Assembly (NCBI GenBank): GCA_033584155.1
Contig: CP138355.1
Coordinates: forward strand, 930,001-994,000
Origin: Candidatus Electrothrix scaldis
Lineage (GTDB): Bacteria > Desulfobacterota > Desulfobulbia > Desulfobulbales > Desulfobulbaceae
DNA length: 64,000 bases
Direction: 5' to 3'
In this document: one piece after another, positions 21,591 through 62,606 of the stretch
Numbering within the stretch: position 1 is the stretch's first letter
Layout: each line of letters begins with the position of its first letter
Notes under the pieces: generated by a model
What the model was told of the DNA's origin: nothing
What the model saw: only the letters and a program-made list of their open reading frames with translations
The model's database searches: none
Position numbers and translations under genes: made by a program

Positions 21591-22166
21591 TTACGCCCCC
21601 ACCCTCACATTCAGCACGTCCGCCAACCGCCCGTAATACTGATCCCGCACCAGGTTCAGCAGGGCGGCATAGTCGTTGACCCGGACGTTCAGGCTGGTGA
21701 CAGCTGATCCGGCAAAGCCCGGCAGGGTGTATTCGCCATCCTCCGTGACGGTCACCGCCGCACCCGCATCCCCGTCCTCGGTCATGCCGAGCAGGCTGAG
21801 GAGCAGCACGCTGTTTCTGATATCAAAGACCGCCTGGATGCGCAGCATTTCGTCCGCCGTGACTGTGCCGCCGATCGCACTGACAAGGGGACTGGTGGTA
21901 TTGCTGGTCAGGATGCCGACTTCCGGCGGGTTGGGATGGCCAAAATCAGTCAGCAGCAGGAGCGAGCGCAGCTTGCGGCGGTAGATGCCGATACGCGGAC
22001 TGCCGTGGCCGGTGGGCCGGGTCGAGACAGTGAGCGTGTATTCGTTATTGAACGGCTCATCCTGAGCAGGGATATCCGGGACCAAGACAATGCTGGAATC
22101 CGAGATCGGGCCGAACTGGTCCTGCACGGCCTCGCCGCTACGGGTACCCTCAATCACGCATTGCAC
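21591..22166 (-). CDS. Hypothetical partner of the HU-like DNA-binding protein
   Basis: 191 aa. No signal peptide. Beta-rich with Ig-like character (SSIVLVPDIPAQ, YTLTVSTRPTG, GEYTLPGFAGSAVTSLNVRV). GTG start at 22166, overlapping the end of the upstream gene by 13 bases; a second GTG at 22157 is better spaced from GGAGG. The upstream gene encodes a HU-like DNA-binding domain, and in related genomes the DNA-binding part is followed by an Ig-like second part in the same chain, so this may be a split version. Function unknown. Confidence 0.55.
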   Translation of the reverse strand: MQCVIEGTRSGEAVQDQFGPISDSSIVLVPDIPAQDEPFNNEYTLTVSTRPTGHGSPRIGIYRRKLRSLLLLTDFGHPNPPEVGILTSNTTSPLVSAIGGTVTADEMLRIQAVFDIRNSVLLLSLLGMTEDGDAGAAVTVTEDGEYTLPGFAGSAVTSLNVRVNDYAALLNLVRDQYYGRLADVLNVRVGA

Positions 22167-22669
22167 CCCTCCGCATCCGGGTCAAAGGCCAGGCGGGTGC
22201 CGCTGAGATGGAGCACACCCTTGCTGTAGAGCACATCAGCCAGATGGAGGCGGGTATCCTCAATACTGTCGATTACCGGCCCTTTCTCGCTCATGGGCAG
22301 CTTTTCGAAGCGAGCCTGCTGACTTATTTCCTTGAGGAAGGGTTGCAGCACCCGCACACTGACATGTAGGGTCTCGTCTGCCGGTGGGAGAGGATCATCC
22401 GGCGACTCCAATCTGCCGGTAAAGGAAAGGCCAAAGGAGAGCATGCCATCTATGGTCGCCTGATCGCCACTGAGCAGCTTCTTCTGAATGACCCGCTCCA
22501 GGAGGGCCAGCGCGGTCTTGGCATCTTCGATGCTGTAGTTCGGATTCTCTTCATGCATTGCGACCGTCAGGTCATCTGTTCCGGATGAACCGCGAGGCAC
22601 GAAGCGAATTTTGTAGGAAGGGGGAACGGTGAGGACGTTAGGTTCGGGCCGCCATTGGATCGTAGGCAT
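22154..22669 (-). CDS. HU-like DNA-binding-domain protein
   Basis: 171 aa from the ATG at 22669, which has GGAG six bases upstream; the TTG at 22681 is less likely. The N-terminus (MPTIQWRPEPNVLTVPPSYK) and the pattern GTDDLTVAMHEENPNYSIEDAKTAL plus SFTGRLESPDDP recall the HU-DNA-binding (PF14848-like) domain: helix pair then beta arm region. The tail IEDTRLHLADVLYSKGVLHLSG continues into a following Ig-like protein encoded in an overlapping frame. It lies directly beside a regular array of 23-bp quasi-palindromes in its upstream region, a natural candidate binding site (inference). Confidence 0.6.
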   Translation of the reverse strand: MPTIQWRPEPNVLTVPPSYKIRFVPRGSSGTDDLTVAMHEENPNYSIEDAKTALALLERVIQKKLLSGDQATIDGMLSFGLSFTGRLESPDDPLPPADETLHVSVRVLQPFLKEISQQARFEKLPMSEKGPVIDSIEDTRLHLADVLYSKGVLHLSGTRLAFDPDAEGCNA

Positions 22670-22810
22670 GATATACTCCAATATTGAGGTGGAATGCTGC
22701 GCCGATAGGTAAGTGTTGATTTTTCACAGATTAATTCTGCATTCTTGTCTTGTCAAGATGTATTTCAAGGCGGCGGGCTGCTGATCAGACAGGAAAGAGG
22801 ATGGTCAATA

Positions 22811-23017
22811 CGAATTTTTCTTGTGACGCAATGCGAATTCGTCGTGATACCCGATGCGATTTTTTTATGATACTCGATACGAATCCGTCGTTATAGGTAT
22901 AACGAATTTGCCGTGATACTCGATGCGAATCTGTCGTGATACATATAACGAACTTGCCGTTATATGTATCACGATTTTTTCATCATACCTATGACGGAAG
23001 CGGTGGGATACGAATAA
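22811..23017. repeat. Tandem array of nine 23-bp units with quasi-palindromic cores
   Basis: Nine consecutive 23-base units start at 22811, 22834, 22857, 22880, 22903, 22926, 22949, 22972 and 22995. Each begins with CG(A)A and a pyrimidine-rich spacer, then a 16-base core like CGTGATACTCGATGCG. Units 2 and 4-7 are best kept; the outer units decay. Several cores are dyads: unit 4 holds CGTTATA-GG-TATAACG, and the core of unit 7 is the exact reverse complement of that of unit 6. The length is not a multiple of three and short frames crossing it are not credible genes. It is not a CRISPR array since there are no unique spacers. Confidence 0.85.
22934..22980 (+). terminator. 17-bp perfect hairpin with T-run inside the array
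   Basis: Bases 22934-22950 pair perfectly with 22958-22974 around AACTTGC and are followed by six T (22975-22980). It is shaped like a strong rho-independent terminator for plus-strand transcription, yet no plus-strand gene lies nearby. It arises from two neighbouring array units in inverted relation. Confidence 0.5.
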
Positions 23018-23105
23018 TGATGGAAAGAGGGTGAGTATCCGCTTGGCAAGGGAACAAGGAGGCGGGTGAGCTCTTCCTGGGAGGAAATACCCTGGCGTGA
23101 GCCTT

Positions 23106-61232: not shown

Positions 61233-62606
61233 ATGAAGAACGTATTGCGCGCGCAGTTTCTGCTTGTAGTCTGCCTTGTCTTCTCAACAATGCAGGCATC
61301 TGCTCAGGACAAGAAATGTCATTTGAATATAGGTGCTTCCCTGCACCCTTATTATTCCTGGGTAAAAAATATCGTTGGTGATGAGGCCAATGTGACATCT
61401 ATCATCCCGCCGGGCTCTGATCCTCACGCCTATCAGCCCGTACCCTCGGATATGGAACATCTGGAAAACCTGGATGCGATTGTTATTAATGGTATTGGTC
61501 ATGACGAGTTTATTAAGCCGATGCTTAAGGCTATTGAAAATGACAAACTGCTGGTTATTAACACCAGTAAGGGCCTCCCTTTAATTCCTGTTTTTAATAA
61601 ACATGCCTATGGTGGGGAGGCAGGCAAAGTCTCCTATAACAGCCATACCTATATCGCTATAACCGGCGCAATTCAACAGATCCAGATGATCGCCAGGAAG
61701 CTGAGCAGACTCTGTCCGGATCAGGCCTCTCTCTTTATCCGAAATACCCGCGCTTATTCTATGAAACTGCGGAATATGTTGCAGGCTGCCCTGATGCGGA
61801 TTGATATGCTTGATCTCAATAATCTGCGTATAGCCACTGTTCATGACGGATATTCATACCTTTTTCAGGAATTGGGTATAGAAGTCAGTGCAGTAGTACA
61901 ACCGCGACACGGTGTAAAACCCAGTGCCCGCCAGCTCCAGGATACTATTAAAAGGATCAAACGGGCCAAGGTGAATGTGCTGTTCGGTGAACTGGATTAT
62001 GAGAAGAAGTATGTGGATATTATCTTTAAGGAGACCGGTTGTCGGCTCTACGCCCTTTCCCATATCTCGAACGGAGCATATAGCAAAGAGCATTTTGAGC
62101 GGACCATGCAGGGGAACATAAACACCATTATCGCAGCCCTGACCGAGGTTTCAGGAGGTATGCGTCCTGGTGGTGTAGCGCCTGGTTCCATGTCCGGTCA
62201 GATTCAGGATAATATGTCACGCCAGATGCAGGATGCTTCCCAGCAGATGCAGAACTCTGTTCAGGAGCAGATCCAAAATGCTGTGCCAGCTATCCAGCAG
62301 AAGCAGATGTCTGAACGCATGAATCAGCAGCTCCAGGATACCACCAAGCAGATGCAGGAAGGTGTTCAGAAGCAGCTGCAGGATGCTATCCCGGCAATTC
62401 AGCAGAAGCAGATGTCTGAACGCATGGGTCAGCAGGTACAGGATACCACCAAGCAGATGCAGGATTCCATGCAGGAGTCTCTGAAAGAGTCTTTGCCGGA
62501 AATGCAACAGGAGCAGGTTAAGAACCGGATGGGGCAGCAGATGCAGGATATGCAGAAAGGTATGATGGAAAAAATGGCTCCGAAAATACCGCAGGATAAG
62601 GAGTAA
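61233..62606 (+). CDS. znuA: Zinc-type ABC transporter binding protein with Met/Gln-rich repeat tail
   Basis: 457 aa. Signal peptide to about ASA|QDK. Cluster A-I binding protein: ASLHPYYSWV (His38), GSDPHAYQPV (His65), YNSHTYIA (His138) and TVHDGYSYLFQEL (His204), with E/D near 252-255; three conserved His point to Zn. Residues 310-457 form an added tail of about four 35-aa repeats (AIQQKQMSERM and QQ-QDTTKQMQ) rich in Gln and Met, expected to be a coiled coil. The usual His-rich loop of ZnuA is not present. First gene of znuACB. Confidence 0.85.
   Translation: MKNVLRAQFLLVVCLVFSTMQASAQDKKCHLNIGASLHPYYSWVKNIVGDEANVTSIIPPGSDPHAYQPVPSDMEHLENLDAIVINGIGHDEFIKPMLKAIENDKLLVINTSKGLPLIPVFNKHAYGGEAGKVSYNSHTYIAITGAIQQIQMIARKLSRLCPDQASLFIRNTRAYSMKLRNMLQAALMRIDMLDLNNLRIATVHDGYSYLFQELGIEVSAVVQPRHGVKPSARQLQDTIKRIKRAKVNVLFGELDYEKKYVDIIFKETGCRLYALSHISNGAYSKEHFERTMQGNINTIIAALTEVSGGMRPGGVAPGSMSGQIQDNMSRQMQDASQQMQNSVQEQIQNAVPAIQQKQMSERMNQQLQDTTKQMQEGVQKQLQDAIPAIQQKQMSERMGQQVQDTTKQMQDSMQESLKESLPEMQQEQVKNRMGQQMQDMQKGMMEKMAPKIPQDKE
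62289..62498 (+). repeat. Two adjacent 105-bp repeats inside znuA
   Basis: Units 62289-62393 and 62394-62498, each 35 codons, both starting with codons for AIQQKQMSERM. Degenerate copies lie before and after. In-frame repeat expansion of the znuA tail. Confidence 0.8.

Follow-up and report, generated by a model that had tools for sequence, protein, structure and literature searches.

Proteins in which an HU-type domain is followed by an Ig-like DUF4469 domain are already known from Bacteroidota, where the HU-DNA_bdg / HU-HIG + DUF4469 proteins include BVU_2165 of Bacteroides vulgatus (PDB 4fmr). An HU-type domain is also found in IHF and other sequence-specific HU-family proteins; to our knowledge, IHF uses one degenerate site without a palindromic array and does not occur as dozens of paralogs with separate sites. 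Iterons are direct repeats of about 20-23 bp that serve replication and form an array upstream of the gene of their own presumed binder, the plasmid Rep protein. In ParB-parS and other orthogonal site-protein pairs, separate proteins are matched with separate palindromic sites of about 16 bp. Here we analyzed a 64,000-nucleotide stretch of DNA from Candidatus Electrothrix scaldis (contig CP138355.1, positions 930,001 to 994,000; the window hereafter), in which an array of 16-bp (quasi-)palindromes repeated every 23 bp lies upstream of a gene for an HU-like protein. We think it probable that the array serves the HU-like gene as its upstream operator array, and that the two are one of many co-diversified pairs of HU + DUF4469 proteins and arrays in cable bacteria. 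The proteins have the domain order of their Bacteroidota counterparts and the HU-type domain of IHF. Unlike iterons, the cable-bacteria units are mostly palindromic, chromosomal, and adjoin a gene of a different fold. The differences from ParB-parS are again the fold, the tight phasing of the arrays before a promoter, and the presence of many pairs per chromosome.

The window array consists of nine 16-mers, one per 23 bases, starting at positions 22820, 22843, 22866, 22889, 22912, 22935, 22958, 22981, and 23004. Over the region 22781-23040, sequence identity was 0.53 at lag 23 and 0.58 at lag 46, against 0.17-0.32 at the remaining lags from 5 to 59. A sequence-only reading of the window had described nine 23-base units in register, which these starts and identities bear out, but its limits of 22811-23017 have to be shifted to the span given in Table 1. 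It was also right that the fourth unit (22889; CGTTATAGGTATAACG) is a perfect dyad with 7-bp arms and that the sixth and seventh units (22935 and 22958) are exact inverted copies of each other. Its description of the units as quasi-palindromic applies to the best of them, which fit CGTNATANNTATNACG, but not to five others with only one (22866), two (22843 and 22912), or three (22820 and 23004) of 8 pairs matched. A variant half such as TCGATACG occurs in three of these weakly palindromic units, and the variant half of units outside the best set (such as CGTATCGA) is found again in relatives. The window holds seven matches to the core at up to two mismatches, while 100 shuffles gave a mean of 1.15 and a maximum of 4. 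Chance or low complexity is ruled out by the lag identities, the shuffles, and the comparison of paralogs with control genes given below. A CRISPR, which the sequence-only reading had also discounted, is ruled out by the anatomy: the 7-bp spacers are themselves recurrent and the units are degenerate. A close relative carries about five units (L044:7886-7993) in place of the nine in-register units of the window although the gene itself is 98% identical, so units seem to be gained and lost fast.

The same arrangement was found at most relatives of this gene. As the query for family-wide and phylum-wide searches we used P0001, an intact copy of the HU-like protein, and the taxonomic family was represented by 59 genomes: eight from the genus of the window (g1, Electrothrix), five from a genus that we take to be Candidatus Electronema (g10), and 46 from other genera. 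Paralogs were drawn from the matches listed in this search, a selection with unequal numbers per genome; of 110 genes in the stretches examined, three without an N-terminus and one without upstream sequence were removed, leaving 106 from 11 genomes. With an array called at an identity of at least 0.55 at lag 23 or 46, 85 of the 106 paralogs had an upstream array, compared with 4 of 198 control genes (Fisher p 1.5e-49). For the control genes, too, the upstream regions were scored, after removal of 19 that coincide in part with a known window-core array. One of the four positive controls is a window-core array and the other three are one thiC-like Electronema gene with an array of another core. 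A blind control over windows of 500 bases was positive in 28 of 694, known arrays included. In 78 of the 106 paralogs, lag 23 or 46 was ahead of all other lags between 8 and 60 by 0.05, and 89 had an array when neighboring lags were allowed, a count that has no control. Each array has about 3-10 units, most of which are dyads, and the pitch is constant at 23 bp.

These genes also share a promoter. A TTGACA / 16-18 bp / TAnnnT-like promoter was present in 100 of the 106 paralogs and in 2 of 530 shuffles. Exact TTGACA occurs in 103 paralogs, mostly 81-91 bases ahead of the aligned start, and is followed by a 17-bp spacer in 101 of them. The array ends a median of 40 bp upstream of the -35 element (5th-95th percentile 13-135; 81 arrays); most of these genes thus have an array at their own promoter. 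Listed close orthologs of the window gene (at least 77% identity) occur in six genomes, all six with a window-core array directly upstream.

Core sequences diverge between paralogs and are conserved between close orthologs. We compared 83 arrays, the window gene and one gene with an internal stop being left out of the 85. Their consensus cores include CGTGATACGTATCACG, TTTCCACTATAGTGCAAC, CTCCATGCNAGCATGGAG, GAGCATGCCTGCATACTC, CTCGATCNNANGATCGGG, and CCCGATAACGGTATCGGG, and single linkage at a similarity of 0.75 divided them into 44 clusters. Within genomes, only 3 of 416 array pairs exceeded this similarity. When pairs were sorted by identity of the HU part of the protein, similarity above 0.75 was seen for all 15 pairs at 90% identity or more, 53% of 19 pairs at 80-90%, 31% of 42 at 70-80%, 5.6% of 142 at 60-70%, and at most 1.3% in each class below 60%. 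The nearest protein in another genome had a similar array in 55 of 83 cases, above the 99% point of a column-permuted null, and several ortholog groups keep the same core across Electrothrix and Electronema. Dyad symmetry exceeded column permutations at p<=0.05 in 60 of the 83 arrays and exceeded all 60 permutations in 40. In a permutation regression on 81 arrays, the standardized coefficients for array similarity were 0.25 for the HU part, 0.16 for the middle, and 0.13 for the end of the protein, none of which was reached in 1000 permutations. Where the sequence-only reading had proposed one small system, the window thus holds one of many parallel protein/array pairs. Candidate specificity residues gave weak peaks at HU-part residues 19-32, 79-92, and 103-116, on which we do not rely: the best partial correlation was 0.117, against a maximum of 0.112 in 100 permutations made in a coarser step.

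The gene beside the window array had been read as a gene pair, which proved to be mistaken. The two open frames are one 358-aa HU-like gene split by a 1-nt deletion near 22161: the relative L044 in genome G047 has an unbroken reading frame of 358 aa, and its stretch, at 98% identity to that of the window, has one base more at this place. From its sequence, we class the encoded protein as an HU-type domain + DUF4469 family member. The window copy reached 26.8 of the 30 bits of the PF14848 cut-off; two paralogs are above this cut-off and a third was counted as reaching it together with its neighbors. PF00216 was above cut-off in two proteins (L198 and L199), and HU-HIG (PF18291) was below cut-off in four. 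DUF4469 (PF14734) followed the HU domain above cut-off in L199 and L200 and was not reported for the other three proteins searched. The best match in a profile search of PDB was 4fmr (E 0.29, not significant alone), and the weak model of the HU domain (mean pLDDT 55) had 4fmr, followed by IHF and HU, as its best fold matches, none at E<=0.001. The full-length model was poor (pLDDT 45). HU + DUF4469 proteins are also annotated in Parabacteroides. The cable-bacteria proteins are about 100 residues longer than the Bacteroidota proteins typified by 4fmr. Four Parabacteroides HU-DUF4469 genes, a very small test, had no 23-bp array in the 500 bases upstream, and three of them lie within about 110 bases of the preceding gene.

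Within the taxonomic family, relatives of P0001 were found in 12 of the 59 genomes (seven of eight in g1, five of five in g10, and none of 46 in other genera), with 2-34 matches per genome that are partly pieces of a single gene. Period-23 arrays with the window core occurred in 11 of the 59 genomes and were confined to the same two genera. In a phylum sample of 395 genomes, P0001 matched the window genome alone, the listed rows including no other g1 or g10 genome, and PF14848 gave single hits in each of nine other genomes, all below cut-off. Viral contigs searched with a Bacteroides fragment gave no match. Literature searches, judged by titles and abstract openings, yielded nothing on these arrays, nor was anything of this kind contained in passages of two papers on cable bacteria (PMC10580974 and PMC10030654). 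The window genome is a single contig of 5,089,909 bases, the size also given in a passage of PMC10926707 for Candidatus Electrothrix scaldis, cable bacterium strain GW3-3.

Table 1. Features of the window array, the adjoining HU-like gene, and related arrays.
Feature	Position in window	Strand	Basis or remark
Array of nine 16-bp (quasi-)palindromes, strict 23-bp period, 7-bp spacers; core CGTNATANNTATNACG, variant CGTATCGAGTATCACG	22820..23019	.	Sequence periodicity, shuffles
-35 element TTGACA of HU-like gene, 63 bp from array	22751..22756	-	Like promoter in 100/106 paralogs
-10 element TAATCT of HU-like gene, 17-bp spacer	22728..22733	-	Sequence
5' part of HU-like gene (HU-DNA_bdg domain), start codon at 22669	22154..22669	-	PF14848 E 5.9e-6, below curated cut-off; paralogs reach cut-off
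3' part of HU-like gene (DUF4469 region + C-terminal part), out of frame	21591..22166	-	Comparison with intact relative; no Pfam hit in this piece
Window-core arrays at close orthologs: window, L044, L031, L033, L050, G018 gene in L090			

In the most likely mechanism, the proteins would bind DNA as dimers, with cognate specificity, would be autoregulatory, and would also act at arrays away from their genes. A dimer of each HU-type protein would bind its own dyads side by side along its own array. Neighboring dimers, 23 bp (about 2.2 turns) apart, would bend or wrap the DNA upstream of the -35 element, and each protein would control its own strong promoter of the sigma-70 type, by activation or repression. 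Arrays of the same core elsewhere may be further binding sites, either regulatory or architectural. A bolder extension, which we hold only tentatively and consider somewhat doubtful, is that the multicellular cable bacteria have turned HU-type proteins, elsewhere usually general benders of DNA, into a large, mutually insulated set of sequence-specific DNA-wrapping proteins, in which the 23-bp geometry is fixed while the sequence code can evolve, with some 20-30 pairs per cell and more private arrays around the chromosome, forming a previously undescribed genome-wide identity or silencing system.

Many arrays stand apart from HU-like genes, and we refer to these as satellites. The window core was found at 29 places in 11 genomes, six of them at a close ortholog and 23 not. 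In the window genome, extra arrays were found for the window core (one), L084 (two), L077 (two), L086/L087 (one), and L085 (one). The L085 core, sought in 12 genomes, occurred at 17 places in nine; four of these places are immediately in front of a listed HU-like gene. Twenty stretches of 20 kb, taken at even intervals, and the window (464,000 bases in total) contained six arrays, two at HU-like genes, and the number of groups was six at lag 23 but averaged 0.18 at lags except 23 and 46. By extrapolation, a genome would hold about 60 arrays. Of 22 window-core satellites, 8 had a promoter-like match directed away from the array at a distance of at most 220 bp, compared with 91 of 1535 one-strand background windows. 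We considered whether satellites mark HU-like genes that had decayed and found no remnant at 26 satellites, searched for up to 2.5 kb per side (nine had less sequence; four further loci were HU-linked, and the window was left out). Nor was there a remnant in the whole of L047, a stretch of genome G041 that holds two arrays. The second of these (L047:12984-13242) has the window core, about nine units, and an identity of up to 95% at lag 23/46.

Several results weigh against the operator reading. At the 0.55 level, 21 of the 106 paralogs have no array (17 if neighboring lags are allowed, without a control), and 23 of the 83 arrays lack dyad symmetry at p<=0.05. Array similarity can likewise be predicted from the middle and the C-terminal part of the protein, so common descent accounts for part of this signal, in which the HU part leads but is not alone. 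The copy of the gene in the window is broken, at least in this assembly. The 23 window-core arrays that are not beside an HU-like gene have neighbors without evident common function, and five genomes (G009, G027, G029, G034, and the 69% complete G055) carry window-core arrays while their best listed relative of the protein is at most 58% identical. No promoter-like match was found within 250 bp of any of six satellites examined in the window genome, and the orientation of genes at satellites (16 tandem, two convergent, and one divergent; n=19) did not differ clearly from background (93, 14, and 28).

The sequence-only reading had tied the array to the HU-like gene, called it an operator array rather than satellite DNA, proposed searching relatives for co-occurrence of core and gene, and named arrays without a linked HU-like gene in relatives as one observation that would count against it. 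The search gave a divided answer. The link stands for the six genomes with both array and listed ortholog and, well outside this locus, for the 85 of 106 paralogs with an upstream array, but the window core recurs at 23 of 29 places away from HU-like genes, beside the six linked ones, and the five genomes above have the array without a listed close ortholog. The window array is therefore not just the local platform of one protein. Arrays without a listed close ortholog may be read by other paralogs, may have outlived their protein, or may belong to a gene that falls in a gap.

The satellites could instead mean that the primary role of these proteins is architectural, each HU-like protein coating or clustering a few arrays of its own and thereby folding the chromosome, anchoring it, or segregating it, with the array at its own gene as one such site. 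Consistent with this are the satellites that each of the five cores studied in the window genome has, the extrapolated number of arrays per genome, and the lack of promoter-like matches at the six satellites there. However, 100 of 106 paralogs have their promoter at a constant position, closely preceded by the array, which points to regulation, and we regard the architectural explanation as unlikely. Nothing was found that points to segregation in particular, which the sequence-only reading had suggested. The pairs might also have a role in conflict with mobile DNA or in regulating variable immunity-like genes, with the arrays marking or silencing variable loci; a 2017 paper reportedly proposed a function in biological conflict for the expanded HU-HIG proteins of Bacteroidetes. 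In individual cases, arrays lie beside an Mrr-type endonuclease, a PLD-like gene, a MauJ-like gene (below cut-off), two LRR-Roc genes, and a TIR-CHAT-TPR gene, as well as beside a transposase-like gene and a CRISPR-like repeat tract, both recognized by eye. Others adjoin housekeeping genes (trpS-, leuB-, thiC-, and thiH-like, by eye), however, and the protein had no relative in phage and plasmid collections at E 0.01, which makes a role in conflict quite improbable.

Window-core arrays in genomes without a listed close ortholog would also be expected if an unrelated regulator bound the arrays and the HU-like gene were one of its targets. This would require a separate regulator for each of many cores that track the HU paralogs, and we give it little credence. 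Finally, the palindromes could act in RNA, as hairpins or attenuators. The window array does fold better than its shuffles (z -3.47) and contains two terminator-like stretches on the + strand (5 found vs 3.3 expected in the region). The paralog arrays, however, lie upstream of the promoter and thus outside its transcript (the 5th percentile of the gap being 13 bp), and the window has no Rfam match, so that an action in RNA is very hard to credit.

If the operator reading is correct, the HU-type proteins of cable bacteria form a natural series in which DNA specificity diverges and the target of each protein adjoins its gene. The recognition code of this fold, which is regarded as mostly unspecific, could then be deduced from sequence and put to the test. 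One family would have split into many lock-and-key pairs that share the 23-base spacing and differ in sequence. This would provide many candidate orthogonal protein-operator pairs of fixed geometry. Cable bacteria are not in pure culture, and the pairs would also offer a first way into the control of their genes.

Some individual arrays deserve mention for their surroundings. Two Electronema loci (L032 and L034) and two of the genus of the window (L045 and L055) have a window-core array at the 3' end of a thiH-like gene, with other neighboring genes that vary. At L045:8099-8164, directly adjoining the array, the last 22 codons of the thiH-like gene are present a second time; such a copy might result from an insertion close to the 3' end of the gene. 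In three Electronema genomes (L032, L034, and L037), an array with core GACATAAGNNCTTATGTC and a 23-bp period lies directly before a thiC-like gene (by eye), with no HU-like gene directly there. An L084-core satellite at L202:1501-1672 (G000:C1:3483343-3483514) has to its right a repeat tract that is CRISPR-like by eye. Satellite arrays of differing cores lie 5' of two LRR-Roc GTPase genes (L203 and L216), and another (L230:6590-6716) has a transposase-like gene on one side and, on the other, a TIR-CHAT-TPR gene whose 3' end faces it. A tract of ~1.9 kb at L048:3141-5024, with a periodicity of up to 1.0 at lag 23 or 46, exceeds the operator-type arrays in length. Elsewhere in the window, a tandem repeat with a 105-base period spans 62242-62550, in two overlapping rows of about two copies each.
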